Shown here piece by piece: positions 8,724-48,635 of a DNA stretch of 64,000 nucleotides. Positions within the stretch are counted from its first letter, which is position 1. Every line of letters starts with the position of its first letter. Location of the stretch: NCBI RefSeq assembly GCF_003369835.1, contig NZ_QPMJ01000002.1:434001-498000 (forward strand), read 5' to 3'. Both the position numbers and the translations under genes were made by a program. The notes below the pieces were generated by a model, which was not told the origin of the DNA, searched no databases, and saw only the letters and a program-made list of their open reading frames with translations. The stretch comes from Halorussus rarus (GTDB lineage Archaea; Halobacteriota; Halobacteria; Halobacteriales; Haladaptataceae).

Positions 8724-9536
8724 ATGCCATCGACGGTGGTCCACGTCGCGCTCGCCGGCCTGGTCGGGACGGCCCTGCTCGCCGAACACTTCGACGGGAA
8801 GGCGGTGGCGGTGGTGATGGCGGCCGTCGCGCTCGTGGACTTCGACGTGTTCCTGGGGTTCTGGATCGAGGGCGCCCACCGGGCGGCGTTCCACACGCTG
8901 CTGCTGCCCGCGCTCGGCGGCGCCCTGCTCTGGGCCGACCTCCGAGGCCGGGCCCTGCCATCGGTGCAGTCCCGCGTCGGGTCGGGGGCGGGGTCCAGGT
9001 CGCTCGCGCTGGTGACCGACCGCTCGCTCGTGCGCTCGCGGTGGGGCGCCCGCGGCGTCCGGGTCGCCTGGGTCACGGTCGTCGCGGTCGCCTTCGCGGG
9101 CATCGGCCTCGACGCGTTCTTCAACGGCGCGAACCTGCTCTACCCGGTCCACGACCGGTTCTACACCTTCTCGGGCAAGGTCTTCTACTCGACGAAGGAG
9201 GGGTTCGTCCAGACGCTCGTGCACGTCGACCTCCAGTCGCTCGTCGACGCGGTCCTGCCGAACGACGCCTCGGCCGGCGGTGCGGACGCGGGCGGCGGGG
9301 CGGGGACGGGGGCCGAGTCGGGCGGTGCCGAGTCGGGCGGTGGCGGGAACTCCAAGCCCGTCCGCACCACGGAGAACACCCACTACAGCACAGGCATCGA
9401 CCCGAAGAAGGGCGCGGAGCAGGGGTCGGTCGAGCGGCTGTTCCCCATCGCGTACTCCGGCGAGCGCGCCCTGCTCGCGCTGACCGGTTACACCGTGGTC
9501 GGACTCCGCGTCTGGATGGAGCGCCGCCGGGCCTGA
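8724..9536 (+). CDS. Membrane-bound metal-dependent hydrolase (YdjM/DUF457-like)
   Basis: 270 residues, integral membrane. The N-terminus MPSTVVHVALAGLVGTALLA places a histidine in the first segment, then DFDVFLGFW and GAHRAAFHTLLLPALGG give the Asp and two His residues characteristic of the YdjM/LexA-binding membrane hydrolase family. Family members are assumed to hydrolyse lipid-phosphate-like substrates but few are characterised. A Gly/Ala/Ser-rich linker (SAGGADAGGGAGTGAESGG region, about residues 185-215) interrupts a predicted extracellular loop and looks disordered. The start was chosen at the ATG at 8724, which begins the conserved domain. Confidence 0.85.
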   Translation: MPSTVVHVALAGLVGTALLAEHFDGKAVAVVMAAVALVDFDVFLGFWIEGAHRAAFHTLLLPALGGALLWADLRGRALPSVQSRVGSGAGSRSLALVTDRSLVRSRWGARGVRVAWVTVVAVAFAGIGLDAFFNGANLLYPVHDRFYTFSGKVFYSTKEGFVQTLVHVDLQSLVDAVLPNDASAGGADAGGGAGTGAESGGAESGGGGNSKPVRTTENTHYSTGIDPKKGAEQGSVERLFPIAYSGERALLALTGYTVVGLRVWMERRRA

Positions 9537-9597
9537 CGGTCCGGTCGGCCCGCGCCGACTCGCAACCGCTAACATCGCGGTGGACCAAGCCTCGGCC

Positions 9598-10143
9598 ATG
9601 ACCGACGACGTCACGATCCGACCGTACGACCCAGACCGTGACGCGCGCGACCTGTGGGACCTCAAGCGCGGCTTCGAACTGGGCCTGGGGTCGGGCACCG
9701 GCGGCGACGACAAGCGGGCCGTCTACGAGGAGAAACTCACCGAGGCGTACGGCGAGCGGTACCTCGACTGGGCGTTCTGGTGCGCGAAGCACGACCGTCA
9801 GTGCGTGACCGTCGCCGAAGTCAAAAGCGCGGGCGACGAGGAGTCCGCCGACGAGGACGCCGAACAGCCCGCGCTCGCGGGCTACGTCTTCGTCCTGCCC
9901 CAGCAACTGGCGATGATCTGGGACGCCGCGGTGCTCAACGAGCTCTACGTCCGGCCCGAGTACCGCGGCACCGCCGTCGCCGACGACCTGATGGACGCGG
10001 CGGTCGCGGTCGCCGACGACCAGGACCTGCCGCTCGACCGGCTCGTGCTCGACGTCGACCGGGAGAACGACCGCGCGCGAGCGTTCTACGACCGCCACGG
10101 CTTCGAGCACTGGGGCGAGATGGTGGCCCGAAAACTGGAGTAG
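9598..10143 (+). CDS. GNAT-family N-acetyltransferase
   Basis: 181 residues from the ATG at 9598. The acetyl-CoA binding motif A is LNELYVRPEYRGTAVADDLM, followed by DVDRENDRARAFYDRHGFEHWG, the typical N-x-x-A-x-x-F-Y-x-x-x-G-F end of GNAT proteins. It transfers an acetyl group to an amine; the substrate is unknown. An in-frame upstream start adds only six residues and is less well placed. It converges with a zinc micro-protein just downstream. Confidence 0.9.
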   Translation: MTDDVTIRPYDPDRDARDLWDLKRGFELGLGSGTGGDDKRAVYEEKLTEAYGERYLDWAFWCAKHDRQCVTVAEVKSAGDEESADEDAEQPALAGYVFVLPQQLAMIWDAAVLNELYVRPEYRGTAVADDLMDAAVAVADDQDLPLDRLVLDVDRENDRARAFYDRHGFEHWGEMVARKLE

Positions 10144-10161
10144 GCCGGCCGCAGAACGAGG

Positions 10162-10269
10162 TCACTCTTCCTCTATCGGGTTTCCGCACTCGGCGCAGAG
10201 GTTCGACTGCCACGAGACTGTCTTCACGATCTCGCATCGCTCCCCGCAGTGGTCACACCACGCTTCCAT
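10162..10269 (-). CDS. 35-residue zinc-finger micro-protein
   Basis: MEAWCDHCGERCEIVKTVSW... ends in CAECGNPIEEE, so two CxxC pairs 17 residues apart could hold one zinc ion. Small two-CxxC proteins are abundant in haloarchaea and some act in stress or biofilm regulation, though most have no known target. A TATA-like element on this strand near 10293-10300 puts the transcript start close to the ATG at 10269, so the longer in-frame extension is rejected. Three phased TAATCG repeats lie further upstream. Confidence 0.8.
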   Translation of the reverse strand: MEAWCDHCGERCEIVKTVSWQSNLCAECGNPIEEE

Positions 10270-39172: not shown

Positions 39173-42100
39173 ATGCAATCGAGACACGAGCGGTCGGGAG
39201 CGAGCGGCGTCGGGCGGGTTCGACGGCTGGCGGGAGTACTGGTGACATTTCTCGTATGCGGGCTCGTCGTGAGCGGCACGGCGGTGGCGGGTATCGGAGC
39301 ATTCGACGGCGAAACGCGGGATACTGTCTCGCTAGCGCCAGATTCCCCGGCGACGGCGGGCTCCTCCCCGGCGAGTCCGGGGGTCGCCGGACGCCAGACC
39401 CAGTCCGGATACAACACGTCGAACGATAGCTTCGGGTGGTCGGTGGCCTCGGCGGGCGACTTCAACGGCGACGGCGCCACCGACGTCGTCGTCGGCGCGC
39501 CGGGCCGCGGCACCAACAACACCGGCGGGGCGTACCTCTTCTACGGGCCGGTCACCGCCGAGAACATCTCGCTCTCGGACGCCGACCTGACGCTGACGGG
39601 CGAGTCGACCGGCGACTACGCCGGCTGGTCGGTCGACGGCGGCGACGTCGACGGCGACGGCTACGCGGACCTCGTCGTCGGGGCGCCCTACAACGACGAG
39701 GCCGGCCGGAACGCCGGCGCGGCCTACGTCGTCTTCGGCAGGGAGGACGCGAACGGCACCGTCTCGCTCGGCGAGGCGGGAACGAAACTGGTCGGCGGGG
39801 CCGACGGGAGCGAGGCCGGCTTCGACGTTAGCGCGCGCGACGTCGACTCGGCCGACGCTCCGGGGCTACTGGTCGGCGCGCCGGCGACTCGGACCGACGC
39901 ACGGCGGGGCGCCGCGCACCTCCTCGCCGGCGAGGCGCTCTCGAACCGGTCGACGGTGTCGCTCCCCGCCGCGGCACAGGGGTCGAACGCGACGCAAGCG
40001 CGGTTCGTCGGCGGCGCGGCCGACGACCGCGCCGGCTGGTCGGTCGCGTGGGCGGGCGACGTCGACGACGACGGCACCGCCGAAATCGCGGTCGGAGCGC
40101 CGTATCACAACGCGAGCGACGACCCGCGCGCCGGGGCGGTGTACCTCGCCGACGCGGACGCCTCTGGGCGTCAGAACCTCACCCAGTCCGAGGCCACGTT
40201 CCTCGGCGGGTCGGCCCACGACAACGCCGGCTTCGCCGTCGGGAGCGCCGACGACGCCAACGGCGACGGCGTCGCCGACCTGCTCGTCGGCGCACCCTCG
40301 AACGACACCTCCGGACGGAACGCGGGCGCCGCGTACGTCGTGTACGGCGGGGCGTCGCTGAACGGGACGCTGACCGCGGACCGGGCCGACGTGGCGGTGT
40401 TCGGCGAGGCGGCGGGCGACCGACTCGGGTGGTCGGTAGCGTCGGCCGGCGACGTCGACTGCGACGGCGACGACGACGTGGTCGCCGGCGCGCCGACCAA
40501 CGACGACACCGGGGCGGCGTACCTCGTCTACGGTCGGGGAACCGACGGCGGCGCGGTGGCCACGAAGCTCACCGGCGGCGGGGCGGGCGACTTCGCGGGC
40601 GCGAGCGTCGCCGGGCTCGGACGCGGCGACGACGGGAGCGACGTCCTGGTCGGCGCGCCCGGCAGCGACATCGGTCGCACCGACAGCGGCGCGGTGTACC
40701 TCGTGCGACCCCAGCGCGGGTGCGGGGCAGACGGTGACGGCGGTGGCGCGGGGGGCACTCGGACGGCAGCAGGCAACAGCAGTACCGCCAGTCCGGACTC
40801 CCGCGACGACGGGAGCGACGGCGGACTCCCCTCCCTGGAGTTCGCCGACGGTGACGAGTCGAGCGGCGACGCGACCGGCGCCGCCGTCCGGCTGGTCTCG
40901 AACGAGGGGGCTTCCGGCGCTGCGGGGAGCCCCGAGCAGCGAGCGTCCGGCGACGACAGGTCCAGCAGCGCTCGGTCCGACGGAGACCGGTCTGAGGGGG
41001 CTCCGACCGACCCGGAAGACGGGACGCCCGACAGAGGGGACAGTGGTTCCGGTTCCGACGATGGAGATTCGGGCCCCGAGAATGGCGACTCCGGCCCCGA
41101 CGGTGGCGACTCCAATCCCGACGACGGAAACTCCGACGACGGGAACTCGAGCCCCGACGACGGCGGAGAGGACGGGAACTCGGGCGACGGCGGGGACGAC
41201 CGGACCGACCGGGAGCCCGACCAGCGCCAGGGCATCCACGTCTACCAGAACCAGTGCCAGCGCCAGACCGGCGACGGGCAGCGCCAAGGCCAGTCACAGG
41301 GCGTCCGGGGCGGCCAGACCCAGTCGGACGGGAGCGTCAGCATCCGGTGGCAGTTCCAGCGGATCCACGTCCAGCAGACCCAGTGCCAGTACCAGGGCGA
41401 CGGCCACGACAACGCCCAGCGTCAGCGCCAGCAGCTGCGGATACGGTTCGCCCAGCAGCAGGGCGGTGACGACGAGCAGTCCCAGCGCCAGGACGTCGAG
41501 AGCCGCCAGAACCAGACGCAACGCCGGTCCGGGTCCGAGCAGGTCCAGACCCAGGTGCAGTGGTTCAGCGTGACCTTCGTCCAGGTCCAGCCGGTGAACG
41601 ACGCCGTCGACCAGTTGCAGTCCCAGTACCTCGACGTCGACCAGAACCAGGAGCAGTCCCAGGGCGACGGCTACGACCAGAGCCAGACGCAGTTCCAGGT
41701 CGTCCAGATCGTCTACCAGGGCCAGACCCAGACGTACGGGGGCGCCCAGGGACAGGCCCAGAACCAGTCGGTCGAGGCGAGCCAGCGCCAGCACCAGGAG
41801 CAGACCAACGTCTCGCAGAACCAGACCCAGAACCAGAGCGTCGACCTCCGACAGAACCAGACCCAGAACCAGACCGACCCGAACGCGAGCCAGACCCAGA
41901 ACCAGAGCATCGACGTCGACCAGGGCCAGAATCAGACGCAGGGCGACGAGGGGCCGAGCCAGTCCCAGCGCCAGAACCAGTCGGTCGACGCCGACCAGAA
42001 CCAGACCGAGGCCGGCGGCCCGAACCAGACGCAGACCCAGAACCAGACCGCCGAGCTGAACCAGAGCCAGACCCAGAACCAATCGCTGACCGGCGGGGAC

Positions 42101-43105
42101 GCGAACGAGAGCAGCGAGGTGGTCGCCGACCAGAACCAGACCCAGCGCCAGTACGGCGAGAACAACACGCAGCGACAGAACGAGTCGATCGCCGTCGACC
42201 AGAACCAGACCCAGTCGCAGACCGAGGCCAACGTCACTACAACCGTCTCGGCGGAAACCGAGGACGGGACCCGGAACGCGTCGGCGTCGAACGCGACCGA
42301 CGCGGCGGGGAATACCACCACGCGCGCGAGCGAGAACCTGACCACCACGTCGACCAACGAAACCACTACATCGACAAACGCGACCGCCACGACGGCGGAC
42401 GAGAACACGACGACGCGGACGGCCGACTCCGCGACTGCGGGAACCGAGACGGCCGCCGAGGCGGAAACTGTCGCCGAAGAGGAGACGACTGCGACGACCG
42501 AAGCGGGGTCGGCCGACGGTGAGCCGACTGCGACCACCGATGCGGCGTCTGACGAGGAGACGACCGAAGCGGAATCGGTCGACGAGGAAGAGCCGACCGA
42601 GTCTCCCACCGAGGAGGACGCCGACGAGGAGACGCCGGCCGGGCAGGAGTCGGACGACGAGACGCCGGAACCGACGACCGAGAAGACCGACGAGCAAACG
42701 GCGAACGAAGAGGGAACCGAGGAGTCGACGACAGAAGACGAATCGGACGACGAGGAGCCGACGACCGATGAGGACCCCGACGAGGAATCGACCGACGAGG
42801 CCCAGACGCAAGAGGGTGAGAAAGCCGATGAGGATGAGGCGACCGAAGCGGAGGAGAAAGACGGCGAAGACGAGGCGACCGAGGACGACGAGCCGACCGA
42901 CGAAGACGAGAATGCTGAAGAGGGCGAGCCGACCGAGGACGACGAGCCGACCGACGAAGACGACAAAGAGGAAGCGGACGAGACGACTACGGCGGACGAG
43001 TCGTCCGCTGCGGACGAACCGGCCGCCGAAGGTGGCGAAAGCACGACGACCGCCGCGGAGAGCGTCGCCGTCGCGGTCGGTCCACACGACTCGCTCGTAG
43101 CGTGA
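39173..43105 (+). CDS. Giant secreted protein: FG-GAP propeller, Gln/Asn ladder, acidic Thr-rich tail
   Basis: 1310 residues. A signal peptide (about 18-40, LAGVLVTFLVCGLVVSGTAV) is followed by seven FG-GAP repeats (about 82-515), each with VVVGAP-like strands and several Ca-binding loops such as DFNGDGATD, DVDGDGYAD and DANGDGVAD, forming an integrin-alpha-like seven-bladed propeller. A Gly/Asp/Ser linker (520-680) leads to about 340 residues (684-1021) of alternating Gln, as in QNQTQNQSVDLRQNQTQNQT, where each NQT/NQS is an N-glycosylation sequon. The tail (1022-1310) is Thr/Glu/Asp-rich. No C-terminal membrane segment or PGF-type anchor is visible, so it is released or held non-covalently. 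Probable adhesin or matrix scaffold; function inferred. Confidence 0.9.
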   Translation: MQSRHERSGASGVGRVRRLAGVLVTFLVCGLVVSGTAVAGIGAFDGETRDTVSLAPDSPATAGSSPASPGVAGRQTQSGYNTSNDSFGWSVASAGDFNGDGATDVVVGAPGRGTNNTGGAYLFYGPVTAENISLSDADLTLTGESTGDYAGWSVDGGDVDGDGYADLVVGAPYNDEAGRNAGAAYVVFGREDANGTVSLGEAGTKLVGGADGSEAGFDVSARDVDSADAPGLLVGAPATRTDARRGAAHLLAGEALSNRSTVSLPAAAQGSNATQARFVGGAADDRAGWSVAWAGDVDDDGTAEIAVGAPYHNASDDPRAGAVYLADADASGRQNLTQSEATFLGGSAHDNAGFAVGSADDANGDGVADLLVGAPSNDTSGRNAGAAYVVYGGASLNGTLTADRADVAVFGEAAGDRLGWSVASAGDVDCDGDDDVVAGAPTNDDTGAAYLVYGRGTDGGAVATKLTGGGAGDFAGASVAGLGRGDDGSDVLVGAPGSDIGRTDSGAVYLVRPQRGCGADGDGGGAGGTRTAAGNSSTASPDSRDDGSDGGLPSLEFADGDESSGDATGAAVRLVSNEGASGAAGSPEQRASGDDRSSSARSDGDRSEGAPTDPEDGTPDRGDSGSGSDDGDSGPENGDSGPDGGDSNPDDGNSDDGNSSPDDGGEDGNSGDGGDDRTDREPDQRQGIHVYQNQCQRQTGDGQRQGQSQGVRGGQTQSDGSVSIRWQFQRIHVQQTQCQYQGDGHDNAQRQRQQLRIRFAQQQGGDDEQSQRQDVESRQNQTQRRSGSEQVQTQVQWFSVTFVQVQPVNDAVDQLQSQYLDVDQNQEQSQGDGYDQSQTQFQVVQIVYQGQTQTYGGAQGQAQNQSVEASQRQHQEQTNVSQNQTQNQSVDLRQNQTQNQTDPNASQTQNQSIDVDQGQNQTQGDEGPSQSQRQNQSVDADQNQTEAGGPNQTQTQNQTAELNQSQTQNQSLTGGDANESSEVVADQNQTQRQYGENNTQRQNESIAVDQNQTQSQTEANVTTTVSAETEDGTRNASASNATDAAGNTTTRASENLTTTSTNETTTSTNATATTADENTTTRTADSATAGTETAAEAETVAEEETTATTEAGSADGEPTATTDAASDEETTEAESVDEEEPTESPTEEDADEETPAGQESDDETPEPTTEKTDEQTANEEGTEESTTEDESDDEEPTTDEDPDEESTDEAQTQEGEKADEDEATEAEEKDGEDEATEDDEPTDEDENAEEGEPTEDDEPTDEDDKEEADETTTADESSAADEPAAEGGESTTTAAESVAVAVGPHDSLVA
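41221..42235 (+). repeat. In-frame Gln/Asn-rich repeat tract
   Basis: About 1 kb of degenerate repeats of words like cagaaccagacccag, translating to Q-N-Q-T-Q. Repeats are imperfect and keep the reading frame and codon usage, so they are protein repeats under selection and not satellite DNA or CRISPR. Confidence 0.85.
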
Positions 43106-43164: not shown

Positions 43165-43926
43165 CTACGTCTCGGTCGTGGTCTCGGACGCGGCCGTGGT
43201 CTCGGTCTCGTTCATCCCGGTTCCGAACGGCGAGCAGTTCCGGATGACGGACACCGTCCGGTCGCCGCCGAGGTCGTCGGTGGAGGCGAAGGCCGCGACG
43301 ATCGCCTCCCCGTCGATTGACACCGTCTCGTTCCCGGCGAGCGTCATGGTGGAGCTGCTGGTCGACGTGCCGGTCGTCGACAGCTCGATGACGCTCACCT
43401 TGCCCACGTACTCGGTGTCCTCGTCCGCGACGAACCGGACCTCGTCGCCCTCGCAGTCGACTTCGATGTCGGGCTCGGTGTCGTCCTGCGACGCCGTCGT
43501 CGTCGCCGTCTCGCCCGCGTCGAGGCAGTCGGTCACGTCGGACGCGACGACCGCTTCGTCTTCGGATTCGTTCTGGACGATGGTGAACACGATCCCCCGC
43601 TCGTCGAGGTCGACCGTCGCGTTGCCCTCGACGGACCCGAACGACGAGCGCGACACGCTGTTGGAGTCGGCCAAGATGTTGGCGACCCCGACGGTCACGC
43701 CGTACTGGTACCCCTCGGGTGCCGTGATGCTGACGTTGGGTGCGGTGCAGTCGACGGTGATGTTCACTGTCGTCTGGTTCGCTGTCATCTGCGCGCTCGC
43801 TCCCGGGTGCCTGTCGATTCCATTCTCGGTCACTCCCCCCGCGATACTCGGCGCGAGGGCCCCGACGCCGAGTATCACAACCCCCACGAGAAGCGCCTCG
43901 GAGGGCGAGATTTCTACACGAGGCAT
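43165..43926 (-). CDS. Exported Cys- and Thr-rich protein of unknown function
   Basis: 253 residues. One hydrophobic segment near the N-terminus (about 11-33, ALLVGVVILGVGALAPSIAG) works as signal anchor or signal peptide. The exported part has four cysteines in similar settings (NITVDCTAPN, VTDCLDAGE, IEVDCEGDE, VIRNCSPFG), suggesting two disulfide-linked domains in tandem, plus many sequons and a Thr/Glu-rich C-terminus (MNETETTAASETTTET). It lies tail-to-tail with the FG-GAP/Gln-rich gene and back-to-back with the curlin-like gene, so it may belong to the same surface system. Confidence 0.78.
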   Translation of the reverse strand: MPRVEISPSEALLVGVVILGVGALAPSIAGGVTENGIDRHPGASAQMTANQTTVNITVDCTAPNVSITAPEGYQYGVTVGVANILADSNSVSRSSFGSVEGNATVDLDERGIVFTIVQNESEDEAVVASDVTDCLDAGETATTTASQDDTEPDIEVDCEGDEVRFVADEDTEYVGKVSVIELSTTGTSTSSSTMTLAGNETVSIDGEAIVAAFASTDDLGGDRTVSVIRNCSPFGTGMNETETTAASETTTET

Positions 43927-44492
43927 ACCGGTATCTCGTCGGAGACGTACAAACTGTTTCTGCTGGCGTTCACTCTATTCGGGATTGATATTGCGGAGAT
44001 GAAACCTGTAGCCATCCGGAATCGAGCCCACGAATGCCGGCGTTCGTCGGCGGACCACTGCGCGGAACCCAACGACTGCACAAGTCGCGCTAAAGCCCTC
44101 GTAACGGCGGACACTGCTCGGCAGCTGACGTCGCGCGGCCGCCGCCCGTGGCGCGATGAGCGGGGGTTCGGGTCGGCGGCGTGGCGGATATTTCTGCGCT
44201 TACGTCCTCGAAACCCAGATTACCGGGGGTAACGGTGGATTCTCCGTGCCGGCTAGGCCCGGGCTAACAACCTGCACTTGACCGCTCGATGCGACTCGAA
44301 CCGAATCCGCCGGTTGAACCGGGTTAGTCGACTGTCGGGCTGCGTAAGCTCAATTACCACCCCTCATGTGTCAATTTCGAGTATGTAATAGCGATTGAAT
44401 TCGGCGAGTCCGGATAATAACAAAGTCCGGTACTGTCGAGCATCGGTCTGCGGCAGGTGCCGTAGGGAAATCCAATGACAGGTGAGAAATCC
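43927..44492. promoter_or_regulatory. Upstream region of curlin-like repeat gene
   Basis: About 550 bases without a gene. A GATTACCG word (44218-44225) followed by GTAACGG (44229-44235) resembles elements before the FG-GAP gene. ATAACAAAGT (44417-44426) matches the same word in that promoter and contains the likely TATA box (gataataac). An AGGTGA ribosome-binding site is at 44480-44485. An AACCGGGTT half-palindrome occurs at 44317-44325. A long leader of about 45 bases is predicted. Confidence 0.5.
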
Positions 44493-46949
44493 ATGACGAA
44501 GCGGTTCGCCGTACTCTTCGCGATACTCGTCGCGAGCAGTATGGCATTGACAGGTATCGGAGCGGCAACCGTAGGCGGTACGCAGGACTGCGAGAGCGCG
44601 CAAGACCAGGCACTATCCGTCGACGCCAACCAGTCCAGCACGGATCTGAAGCATCTCGACACCAACAGTAATCAGACGGACGACCAGGACATCTCCGGAG
44701 ACGTCGACCAGTCGCAGGAAGCGACCGGGGATCGGAACTGCCAGGAGCAGTCCGAGAGCCTCACCGCGGAGCAGAAGGCGAACCAGACGCTCGTGGGCGG
44801 GAGCAACAGCGACCAGACCGCTGACCAGGACGCGACCGCCGAGAGCGACCAGGATCAGTTCGTCGAGGACGGCGACGACAACTACCAGGACCAACAGTCG
44901 GCCCAGTGGATGAGCCAGCAGCTGATCCAGCTGTCGTTCTTCGGTAGCAACAACACCCAGAACGCCACGCAGGACGCCGACCAGGAGAACGACCAGCTGC
45001 AGGTCGTCGCGAACGGCGACAACAACACGCAGGACGCCGACAACGAGCAGAACATCAGCCAGAAGCTCGTCCAGTTCGTCGCCTTCGGTAGCGACAACAC
45101 CCAGGACGCAGACCAGAACGCAGACCAGGTGAACGATCAGGACCAGATCGCCGTCAACGGCGACAACAACACGCAGGACGCCGACAACGACCAGGACATC
45201 ACCCAGCGCGGCGCGCAGATCATCCTCTTCGGCGACGACAACGACCAGGACCTCGACCAGGACGCCGACCAGGAGAACTACCAGGACCAGATCGCCGAGA
45301 ACGGTAGCGAGAACGACCAGGACGCCGACAACGAGCAGGATATCGACCAGGACGGCGGCCAGGTCGTCGTCTTCGGTGACGACAACGACCAGGACGCCGA
45401 CCAGGACGCCGAGCAGAAGAACGACCAGGAGCAGATCGTCTACGAGGGCGACGAGAACACCCAGGAGGCCGACAACGACCAGACCGCCGACCAGCAGAGC
45501 GAGCAGCAGGTCTGGGTCGGTAACAACAACACGCAGGACAGCGACCAGGACAGCTACCAAGACAGCGAGCAAATCCAGGAGATAATCTTCGGCAACGACA
45601 ACGATCAGGACGCCGACAGCGACCAGACCGCCGAACAGGACTCCGACCAGGACGTCAGCGGTGACCGCAACGTTCAGGAGAGCGACCAGATCGACGACCA
45701 GGACAGCGAGCAGTACCAGAACGCGACCGGCGACGACAACAAGCAGGACGCCGAGAGCGACCAGAACTCCTACCAGGAGAGCGACCAGGACGCTGACGGC
45801 GACGACAACGATCAGGACAGCTACCAGAACAGCGACCAGTCCAACGACCAGGACCAGATCGCGAGCGGCGACGAGAACGACCAGGAGCAGGACTCCGAGC
45901 AGGACAACGACCAGGACGAGGACCAGGACGCCGACGGTGACAAGAACGACCAGGACGCCGACCAGACGAACGACCAGATCAGCGACCAGTACCAGCAGTC
46001 GAGCGGCGAGAACGCCGACCAGGACCAGGACTCCGACCAGGACTCCGACCAGGACTCCGACCAAGACGCTGACGGCGACAAGAACAAGCAGGACAGCGAC
46101 CAGGACAGCGAGCAGGAGAGCGGTCAGGACCAGAGCACTAGCGGTGACGACAACGAACAGGATCAGTACAGCGAGCAGGACTCCGAGCAGGACTCCGAGC
46201 AGGACTCCGACAGTGACGAGAACGTCCAGGAGAGCGACCAGGTCGGTGACCAGGACAGCGAGCAGGACCAGGACGCCGACGGCGAGGACAACGACCAGGA
46301 GCAGGACAGCGAGCAGGACGCTGAGCAGAACAGCGACCAGGACGCCGACGGCGAGGACAACGACCAGGACAGCTACCAGAACAGCGACCAGGAGAGCGAC
46401 CAGGAGCAGAGCTCCAGCGGTGACGACAACGAGCAGGACCAGGAGAGCGACCAGGACGTCGAGCAGGACCTCGACCAAGAGGCTGACGGCGACGACAACG
46501 ACCAGGACGCCGATCAGGTGAGCGACCAGGAGAGCGACCAGGAGCAGAGCTCCAGCGGCGAGGACAACGACCAGGACCAGGAGCAGAGCAGCGACGTCGA
46601 ACAGGAGAGCGACCAGGAGGCTGACGGCGACGACAACGACCAAGAGCAACGGTCGGAGGTCGACGTCGATCAGGACCAGGAGCAGAGTTCGAGCGGCGAC
46701 GACAACGAACAGGACCAGGAACAGGACGTCGAGGTCGACCAGGAGCAGGACCAGGACGCGGACGGTGAAGACGACGAGCAGGAGCAGAGCTCGGACGTCG
46801 ACGTCGATCAGGAGCAGGAGCAGAGCACCTCCGGTAGCGGCAACGACCAGGATCAGAGCCAGTCGGTGTCGGTCAGCACCGACCAGGACCAGGACTCGGA
46901 CGACGATGACGACGAGAAGAAGAGTCTGATTGCGCCCCTGGCGCTCTGA
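44493..46949 (+). CDS. Secreted acidic repeat protein with curlin-like 23-24-residue repeats
   Basis: 818 residues from the ATG at 44493, chosen because AGGTGA at 44480-44485 is 7 bases upstream; an in-frame ATG at 44475 is the alternative. A Sec signal (MTKRFAVLFAILVASSMALT) precedes about 28 tandem repeats of 23-24 residues beginning G-x2-N-x-Q, for example FGDDNDQDADQDAEQ and NGDNNTQDADNEQNISQ. Curlin repeats of CsgA read G-x-G-N-x-A-x3-Q, so Gly, Asn and the Gln nine after Gly coincide in many units. Early repeats carry hydrophobic strands (IIL, VVV, FVAF); later ones become nearly all D, Q, S, E. Repeats alternate in type, giving a 48-residue super-unit. Likely an extracellular beta-solenoid or amyloid-like fibre, possibly Ca2+-bound; inference. 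No CsgG/CsgE homologue is nearby. Confidence 0.88.
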   Translation: MTKRFAVLFAILVASSMALTGIGAATVGGTQDCESAQDQALSVDANQSSTDLKHLDTNSNQTDDQDISGDVDQSQEATGDRNCQEQSESLTAEQKANQTLVGGSNSDQTADQDATAESDQDQFVEDGDDNYQDQQSAQWMSQQLIQLSFFGSNNTQNATQDADQENDQLQVVANGDNNTQDADNEQNISQKLVQFVAFGSDNTQDADQNADQVNDQDQIAVNGDNNTQDADNDQDITQRGAQIILFGDDNDQDLDQDADQENYQDQIAENGSENDQDADNEQDIDQDGGQVVVFGDDNDQDADQDAEQKNDQEQIVYEGDENTQEADNDQTADQQSEQQVWVGNNNTQDSDQDSYQDSEQIQEIIFGNDNDQDADSDQTAEQDSDQDVSGDRNVQESDQIDDQDSEQYQNATGDDNKQDAESDQNSYQESDQDADGDDNDQDSYQNSDQSNDQDQIASGDENDQEQDSEQDNDQDEDQDADGDKNDQDADQTNDQISDQYQQSSGENADQDQDSDQDSDQDSDQDADGDKNKQDSDQDSEQESGQDQSTSGDDNEQDQYSEQDSEQDSEQDSDSDENVQESDQVGDQDSEQDQDADGEDNDQEQDSEQDAEQNSDQDADGEDNDQDSYQNSDQESDQEQSSSGDDNEQDQESDQDVEQDLDQEADGDDNDQDADQVSDQESDQEQSSSGEDNDQDQEQSSDVEQESDQEADGDDNDQEQRSEVDVDQDQEQSSSGDDNEQDQEQDVEVDQEQDQDADGEDDEQEQSSDVDVDQEQEQSTSGSGNDQDQSQSVSVSTDQDQDSDDDDDEKKSLIAPLAL
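44943..46890 (+). repeat. About 28 tandem coding repeats of 69-72 bp
   Basis: Tandem units of about 69-72 bases with recurring gacaacgaccaggac words. They diverge at third positions but keep G, N and Q codons, implying selection on protein. Late units (after about 46020) are closer to each other than early units, suggesting recent expansion at the 3' side. Confidence 0.85.
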
Positions 46950-46973
46950 ACGCAACCAGAACGACCGTCTTCA

Positions 46974-47068: not shown

Positions 47069-48499
47069 TCAGCAGAAGTTCTGCGTGGCGTACACCTTCC
47101 CCTCGGACGTGATGTAGAGGCCGATACCCTCCTTGTTCCAGCCCGCGGTCAGGATGTTCTCGCGGTGGCCCTCGGAGTTCATCCACTGGCTGACGATGCC
47201 GGCGGCCAGTTCGTCGGCGTTGTCGTGGTGGATGGTGCCGTCGTCGGTCCTGACGTCCGTGTCGTAGTAGGTGTAGGCGATGTTCTCGCCGCCGGTGTAG
47301 TACCGGGTGTCGGTGATGTACGCCCGGCAGTCGTAGCCGAACGTCTCGTACCGGTCCGACCGCGACTCCCCGCTCGGAGAGGTGTGACTGAAGTAGTCGT
47401 TCTCGGCCATGTCCCTGCTGTGGTACCGGGCGATCTCGCGGAGGTCGGTGTCGAAGTCGAGCGTGCCCAGGCCGTGGTCCGTCCGGCGCTCGTTGATGTA
47501 CTCGTGGACGAGTCGCTCCACGCGATTCCTGTCGAGTTCCGAGAGGGGCGTCTCCTCGTCGACCGCTTCCCCGTCATCCCCCTCCCGCTCCGCGACGCCT
47601 TCGACCACGAGATAGCCCACGCGCTCGCCCAGGTGGGCGGTCTCGGCGTCGGCGCTGCGCTCCTCTTGAACCTTCACGTCGACCGACGAACCGGTCAGAT
47701 TCCGGTACCGGACCGAGCAGGTGTTCGACCCCCGGAACGTCTGCACGTCGACCAGGAGGACGGGGTCCGCGTAGCTGTCGCCGAACTCGATGGTGGTCCA
47801 GGCGTCGCCGACGCCCGAGCGGGTCCCCGCCTCGTAGGCGCGGCCGTCGAGCGTCCCCGACCCGGGCTCGACCGCGAGGTAGCCGACGTCCTCGACCCGG
47901 TGAGGGCCCTGGGCCTCGGCCTCCTGGAGGCGCACCGAGAGTCCGGACGCAGACACGTCGCTGTGGCGCGTGACGACCGGCTGGCCGCCCGCGACCGTCT
48001 GGGACTGCGAGAACACCACGGGCGCCGACGAGAACGACGCGGAGAAGGCGACCGACTCCCAGCGGTGGTCGGTCCGGACCCGGCCGGTTTCGAGGGCGGT
48101 GCCGTCCGCGAGGGCGTACTCGCCGGGTTCGGTGGCGAGGTAGCCGACCGTCTCCTCGCGGTGGGCGCCGTCGAGGTACCCCCACTCCTCGACCCGGAGG
48201 TCGAACGCGTCGCTCCCGACGTCGCGGAGGCGGGGGGACGCGGGCTGGGGGCCCCGGTAGCTCAGCCCCGACGAGAGGACGACCGGGTCGGTCGACGACC
48301 CGGACAGCCCCACCGTCTGCCAGGTGTGGTTGACCGCGGCCGACCCCGCGTCGACCGTGACGGCGGGGGCCAGTGCCGCCGTTCGCTCGGCGACTGCGCC
48401 GAGGCCGATGCCGCCGGCGAGCAGTCCAGTCGCCCGGAGATAGCCGCGTCTGCTCAGTGATGCCTCTGATTCGGAGTTGACGCTCGTGTCGCGGACCAT
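47069..48499 (-). CDS. Tat-exported protein: three lectin-like repeats and C-terminal CAP domain
   Basis: 476 residues from the ATG at 48499. Tat signal SRRGYLRATGLLAGGIGLGA, then three homologous repeats of about 80 residues (about 60-310), each with the pattern W-x2-V-x-F/L ... PVV ... VGYLATE/VGYLAVE/VGYLVVE, similar to H-type-lectin-like or jelly-roll surface repeats. Residues about 330-476 are a CAP/SCP domain with YHSRDMAENDYFSHTSPSG, GGENIAY and QWMNSEGHRENIL, all hallmark CAP motifs. CAP proteins act outside cells and bind lipids, metals or matrix. A TATA box (tttttaaacg on this strand, plus 48528-48537) is 30 bases upstream. Confidence 0.9.
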   Translation of the reverse strand: MVRDTSVNSESEASLSRRGYLRATGLLAGGIGLGAVAERTAALAPAVTVDAGSAAVNHTWQTVGLSGSSTDPVVLSSGLSYRGPQPASPRLRDVGSDAFDLRVEEWGYLDGAHREETVGYLATEPGEYALADGTALETGRVRTDHRWESVAFSASFSSAPVVFSQSQTVAGGQPVVTRHSDVSASGLSVRLQEAEAQGPHRVEDVGYLAVEPGSGTLDGRAYEAGTRSGVGDAWTTIEFGDSYADPVLLVDVQTFRGSNTCSVRYRNLTGSSVDVKVQEERSADAETAHLGERVGYLVVEGVAEREGDDGEAVDEETPLSELDRNRVERLVHEYINERRTDHGLGTLDFDTDLREIARYHSRDMAENDYFSHTSPSGESRSDRYETFGYDCRAYITDTRYYTGGENIAYTYYDTDVRTDDGTIHHDNADELAAGIVSQWMNSEGHRENILTAGWNKEGIGLYITSEGKVYATQNFC

Positions 48500-48635
48500 G
48501 CGCGTGGTCGGTGCTCCCACCAGTCGTTTAAAAATATTCTGCTTTCTTTGAAAACTAGCCCGCCAGATTACACGAACCGGAGAACGTCCGACGGACCGTC
48601 CGACGGTGCGCTCGGTCGGCCTGCCGACGCCCGCC

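Follow-up and report, generated by a model that had tools for sequence, protein, structure and literature searches.

Among the described systems that come closest to the protein reported here are the curlins CsgA and CsgB. The published curlin rung comprises about 23 amino acids (aa) in two short strands and two arcs, the curlin core motif reads N-$-psi-$-psi-$-Q, where psi is small or hydrophobic, and Asn/Gln ladders stabilize the beta-arches of bacterial amyloids (PMC10192328). The acidic curlin homologue R15.5, with 20% Asp+Glu, still forms fibrils, and curlins are usually modelled well, with a mean pLDDT of 83 (PMC10192328). Elsewhere, the minimal curli repeat is given as X6QXGX2NX10, and one archaeal protein with curli-like repeats is mentioned (PMC3521004).

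Two other amyloid systems invite comparison with a Gln-rich, acidic repeat protein encoded by Halorussus rarus within the window analysed here (the whole stretch of 64,000 nucleotides). FapC of Pseudomonas resembles the repeat protein in that its repeats are imperfect, have conserved Asn/Gln and stack into the layers of a beta-solenoid (PMC12822426), but it contains three repeats with linkers, Greek-key layers, a partly hydrophobic core and a dedicated outer-membrane exporter; a Pfam scan revealed no sequence relation between the two. The MspA sheath amyloids of Methanospirillum and Methanosaeta are likewise archaeal and secreted, and G, A, N and Q are conserved in their repeats (PMC6242892); compared by description, they differ in their weak repeats of about 80 aa, in their organisms and in their place in the cell sheath. 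For the repeat protein itself, Pfam (E<=1) and NCBIfam scans returned no match, a sequence search of solved structures returned no relative, and we found no description of the family in the open-access literature.

A probably secreted repeat protein with two-faced units

The first-pass annotation placed the start of the gene at the second in-frame ATG of an ORF that opens 18 nucleotides upstream, leaving two candidate starts (Table 1). Its claim of a Sec signal agrees with the signal-like N-terminal stretch, and no membrane anchor is evident in the sequence. The mature part of the protein is 20% Gln and 34% Asp+Glu, with a net charge of -256.

Table 1. Coordinates of the locus and of related genes (positions in the window unless preceded by a locus number)
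Feature	Position	Strand	Evidence and remarks
Secreted FG-GAP beta-propeller protein, 1310 aa, with Gln-x-Gln domain and acidic/Thr-rich tail	39173..43105	+	PF01839 E 4.4e-40
Gln-x-Gln domain of the FG-GAP protein	41210..42232	+	29% Gln, 23-residue period
Small secreted protein	43165..43926	-	tblastn matches in L021 and L023; no significant Pfam match
Gln-ladder acidic repeat protein	44475..46949	+	ORF, 824 aa; start 44475 or 44493
Signal-peptide-like hydrophobic N-terminus without lipobox	44493..44578	+	by eye; hydrophobic stretch kept in orthologues
N-terminal region, less regular repeats	44580..44870	+	Cys at residues 39 and 89, kept in family members
Ten 24-aa units (residues 133-372)	44871..45590	+	hydrophobic unit ends
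Eighteen 23-aa units (residues 373-786)	45591..46832	+	outer face strongly acidic
Conserved last unit	46833..46904	+	91% identity to last unit of the G013 orthologue
Antisense ORF	44613-46955	-	taken as an artefact of G+C-rich repeats
Secreted CAP/YkwD-domain protein with H-type-lectin-like repeats	47069..48520	-	PF00188 E 5.5e-17; H_lectin E 0.088, below cut-off
Glu-rich second copy, same genome, contig C1	L020:8836-11280	-	
Genuine curlin-repeat protein, same genome, contig C5	L019:5420-6463	-	347 aa; PF07012 E 1.8e-47
Secreted Gln-repeat protein, genus g42	L051:11972-13294	-	403-440 aa for the three; no Pfam match
Secreted Gln-repeat protein, genus g42	L054:11901-13184	-	as above
Secreted Gln-repeat protein, genus g42	L055:4462-5673	+	as above
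DUF7344 protein	L049:5869-6441		
DUF7344 protein	L051:13775-14362		
DUF7344 protein	L053:11813-12376		
DUF7344 protein	L056:7890-8447		
Homologue of the repeat protein in G298	L056, around 9000-10250	-	TAG stops; FG-GAP partner intact

The array of about 28 consecutive units of 23-24 residues reported in the first-pass annotation is real: 28 units follow one another without a break from residue 133 to 786, and the sequence contains 27 exact G-x2-N-x-Q motifs, compared to a mean of 0.63 and a maximum of 5 in 2000 shuffles. In register, Gly occupies position 1 in 27 of 28 units, Asn position 4 in 26 of 28, and Gln positions 6 and 20 in every unit (28/28 each), and the Gln said to lie often nine residues past the Gly is seen in 14 of the 27 exact motifs. 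The ten 24-aa units align almost colinearly with relatives from other families, the number of 23-aa units differs among relatives, and the conserved last unit is a possible cap. Measured in blocks of 75 residues, acidity climbs toward the C-terminus, as had been claimed, starting at about 0.19-0.24 and reaching 0.45, and the C-terminal half has little hydrophobic content. The units do not become more alike in the same direction (identity at a lag of two units is 0.56 in the N-terminal half and 0.58 in the C-terminal half), nor is there support in this protein for the recent expansion that had been suggested, as units two apart share 0.58-0.88 DNA identity throughout, the first units excepted.

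Within each unit the residues alternate. At even positions (4, 6 and so on to 20), Gln makes up 42-49%, Asn 11-19% and acidic residues 1-2%, the residues in register on this face being Gln, Asn, Ala, Ser or Val; odd positions are 50-77% acid (Asp/Glu) and 1-4% Gln. Because this parity holds without interruption from position 4 through position 20 at least, each unit can be read as a single long strand with two faces, followed by one Gly-containing arc. Conservation alternates in the same way. In three cross-species alignments the identity of the even face is 0.78, 0.69 and 0.70 and that of the odd face 0.26, 0.21 and 0.26. Across six homologues, whose overall identity to the repeat protein is 35-50%, 72% of Gln columns are invariant, compared to 4% of the Asp columns and 0% of the Glu columns. 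At the sequence level, such alternate-position conservation argues strongly for a beta-strand core, since a beta-strand with one buried face predicts conservation of one face and neither a disordered acidic brush nor simple repeat slippage does.

The same data bear on two other explanations. One is a calcium- or ion-binding repeat protein, RTX-like or DxDxDG-like, in which Asp loops are functional; strings of the DADGDDND type do recur in the C-terminal half, but Asp is among the least conserved residues, an orthologue has SVKNGDKN or DARGDYN at the matching place, and no Pfam model matches. We consider this explanation scarcely credible and dropped it because the Asp residues are not conserved. 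The other is a polymer, on the surface or secreted, that is acidic, Gln-rich and intrinsically disordered, a mucin-like brush with no ordered fold. The high content of acidic residues, the large negative charge and the few hydrophobic residues of the C-terminal half would suit such a polymer, as would AlphaFold2 models with a pLDDT below 50 nearly everywhere, but disorder fails to predict conservation at every second residue, or the superperiod confined to one face that is described below, and we judge it distinctly unlikely.

A repeat of two alternating units

The real repeat, overlooked in the first-pass annotation, is 46-48 aa long and consists of two alternating unit types. In the five members of the D-rich type that were tested, identity as a function of lag has its maximum at 46-49 aa (z about 18-40), and 23-25 aa is a weaker sub-period. 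The signal in the repeat protein lies on the even face, where identity is 0.40 between neighbouring units (lag 1) and 0.81 two units apart; the odd face has no superperiod, with 0.37 at lag 1 and 0.39 at lag 2. The even-face superperiod is repeated in G013 and is similar, less strong, in L053, and in L049 and L051 identity rises at two units on both faces. It is weak in G011, the paralogue and L055, all of the E-rich subfamily, which we count against the beta-arch filament explanation given below.

The simplest reading of this superperiod is a stacked beta-arch in which a rung would comprise two units, leading from an A strand through an arc to a B strand and a second arc, and in which A would stack over A and B over B. 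A regular rung, alternation between inward and outward residues, and like-over-like stacking, the features of a beta-solenoid or beta-arch, can all be recognized at the sequence level. Structure prediction provides no such picture. AlphaFold2, given residues 36-556 and two homologues (a 3-sequence alignment), yielded a mean pLDDT of 28.4 and assigned no secondary structure. That it finds no fold here while curlins model well counts against a stacked beta-arch, although the depth of only three sequences tempers this. The earlier suggestion of a functional amyloid or beta-solenoid thus gains strand-level evidence from the sequence and none from the predicted fold (pLDDT 28), polymerization being what we infer.

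Relationship to curlins

The description of the protein as curlin-like holds for its secreted, acidic, periodic ladders of Asn, Gln and Gly and fails for family membership. With CsgA and CsgB it shares secreted tandem repeats, the G-x2-N element and a Gln nine residues past the Gly, as well as a conserved, presumably inward Asn/Gln ladder and a variable outer face (0.69-0.78 vs 0.21-0.26). The match in length that had been noted is misleading, as it sets a half-rung of 23-24 aa against a whole curlin rung: the curlin rung has two strands and two arcs in 22-23 aa, whereas each unit here would supply one strand and one Gly arc to a rung of 46-48 aa. Judged from sequence alone, the curlin arrangement of two strands and two arcs in ~23 aa is not found in the repeat protein. 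In addition, the second core position is Gln here and small or hydrophobic in curlin, and Q-x-G-x2-N does not occur.

The genome of H. rarus also encodes a genuine curlin-repeat protein, which was the only match in a PF07012 search of the whole genome and served as the positive control for motif counts. It contains 11 copies of the minimal curli motif and 23 of the core motif, compared to 0 of each in the repeat protein. A profile-profile comparison with curlin repeats (hhalign) gave probabilities of 0.6-14%, within the range of permuted controls; the score was reached by 16 of 150 fully column-permuted and 76 of 150 parity-preserving controls. Of the Csg secretion operon, CsgG was the component looked for, and it is absent from the genome by a search that detected the E. 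coli control.

The two proteins of this genome are nevertheless alike in several respects. The curlin has 19-aa units with one Gly arc each, an Asp-rich outer face, I/V alternation between units and a charged, probably helical C-terminus; shared with the repeat protein are the acidic outer face, the alternating inner face, the single Gly arc per unit and hints of a two-unit alternation. The cores differ (N-A-V-Q-N-A-V-Q in the curlin, N-Q-A-Q-x-Q-N-Q-Q in the repeat protein) and the loci are unrelated. Genuine curlins are rare in Halobacteria, being found in 5 of 391 genomes and 2 genera. A true curlin of the CsgA/CsgB family that had diverged strongly might display these likenesses, along with the common G-x2-N and the Gln nine past Gly, but the lack of a PF07012 match, the motif counts and the performance of the hhalign controls make this very unlikely. 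By its sequence, the repeat protein resembles curlin in principle and is not a curlin.

A candidate partner and its neighbourhood

Upstream of the repeat protein gene lies the gene of a secreted FG-GAP protein with a Gln-x-Gln domain of matching period (Table 1). In this domain the dominant spacing of Gln is 2, and alternating runs, often of 15-19 residues, lie between arcs of Gly, Pro and Asn; in a comparison of three species, 85% of the Gln columns of the domain do not vary. Like the repeat protein, it was not folded by AlphaFold2 from a shallow three-sequence alignment (mean pLDDT 32, essentially all below 50). The domain is strong in 7 of 391 genomes, and 7/7 of these have the repeat protein family at the same locus, a co-occurrence with p 5e-13 by genome and 4e-5 by genus. 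Because an opposite-strand gene intervenes in the window, the two genes do not form one operon here. The FG-GAP protein is also not universal, as it is missing in genus g42, where another secreted Gln-repeat protein is encoded near the homologues of the repeat protein. These g42 proteins have a C-terminal VVVVQxNVQ-like repeat with Gln/Val alternation. Separately, the profile of the Gln domain weakly matched large secreted haloarchaeal proteins (L068-L080) with repeats like GAAxGALxQxQxVTVxQIQxAA, another family with Gln-x-Gln alternation.

The FG-GAP protein, the small secreted protein and the CAP protein are kept as a neighbourhood in three species of the genus. The order of the CAP and small secreted genes varies within the genus while both remain at the locus, and the CAP protein encoded there shares 66-67% identity between species of the genus. 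Taken together, the partner and its neighbourhood suggest that the repeat protein acts at the surface or in a matrix. In several genera outside that of the window, a DUF7344 protein, likely a winged-helix regulator, adjoins the homologue of the repeat protein.

Distribution of the family

The family of the repeat protein is rare, being detected in 12 of 391 Halobacteria genomes, in 10 of them strongly. Within the genus, three genomes have relatives; others come from further families of haloarchaea, with Halostella pelagica and Halobacteria archaeon HArc-gm2 among the named hosts. The genome of H. rarus itself carries a paralogue, a Glu-rich second copy that has no FG-GAP partner nearby; in G011, the Glu-rich type occupies the partner locus. 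The family appears to be confined to haloarchaea, as a phylum-wide search found no relative outside the haloarchaeal order; a plasmid collection and viral contigs yielded none. The copy in G298, which is one of the seven genomes with the Gln-x-Gln domain, is interrupted by stops and is possibly decaying.

Proposed structure and assembly

The proposal that follows starts from features read directly in the sequences: the units are periodic, their residues alternate between two faces of which one is conserved, the signature of a two-unit rung is present, and the partnership of the two genes is conserved. With a probability of roughly one half, we propose that the repeat protein is a secreted stacked beta-arch or beta-solenoid with a polar core, which assembles into a cell-surface filament or matrix fibre with the FG-GAP protein as anchor or nucleator. 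Each 23-24-residue unit would form one strand of ~17 residues (positions 4-20) and one Gly-containing arc; strand types A and B would alternate, with a rung of two units (46-48 residues) in which A stacks on A and B on B. The inward face would carry ladders of Gln/Asn together with small or aliphatic residues, much like an amyloid core, and the outward face of Asp/Glu would keep the protein soluble and hydrated in high salt. Assembly into a filament or matrix fibre would most likely take place at the cell surface, where the FG-GAP protein, by analogy with CsgB for CsgA, may serve as surface anchor or nucleator through its Gln-x-Gln domain of matching period. Fold, polymerization, anchoring and a role in matrix or adhesion are what we infer for the repeat protein, and the unusually polar core counts against the proposal.

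The same strand-level evidence would also suit a beta-solenoid that does not polymerize, a monomer acting at the cell surface as a stiff, acidic stalk or spacer in the manner of an adhesin. The great length of the array, the variation in how many C-terminal units it has, a conserved last unit as a possible cap and two conserved N-terminal Cys would all be in keeping with a stalk. However, the locus encodes a second protein whose Gln ladder has a matching period, which suggests that the proteins stack on one another, and the lack of an evident membrane anchor in the sequence also counts against a stalk; we therefore regard the stalk as rather unlikely.

Implications for haloarchaeal amyloids

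Biofilms of haloarchaea (Haloferax) bind Congo red and thioflavin T, and the candidate gene is only tentative (PMC4180959). The locus described here provides a concrete amyloid candidate, whose proposed design has a mostly polar Gln/Asn core surrounded by acidic residues, rungs of two long strands, and a partner protein that matches it. The repeat protein is a well-conserved Gln/Asn-ladder beta-repeat protein and most likely an extracellular subunit of a beta-arch filament, which would polymerize. More tentatively, the locus may represent an undescribed archaeal functional amyloid system, in which a Gln/Asn-ladder subunit with wide rungs of 46-48 aa and a polyacidic exterior and a beta-propeller anchor or nucleator with a matching Gln ladder are exported without the outer-membrane machinery of bacterial curli. 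If this is true, the design space of amyloids would gain a rung twice the width of that of curlin, with a largely polar core able to function in very high salt; the propeller protein with its Gln-x-Gln domain would then be a candidate for a nucleator or anchor in archaea.
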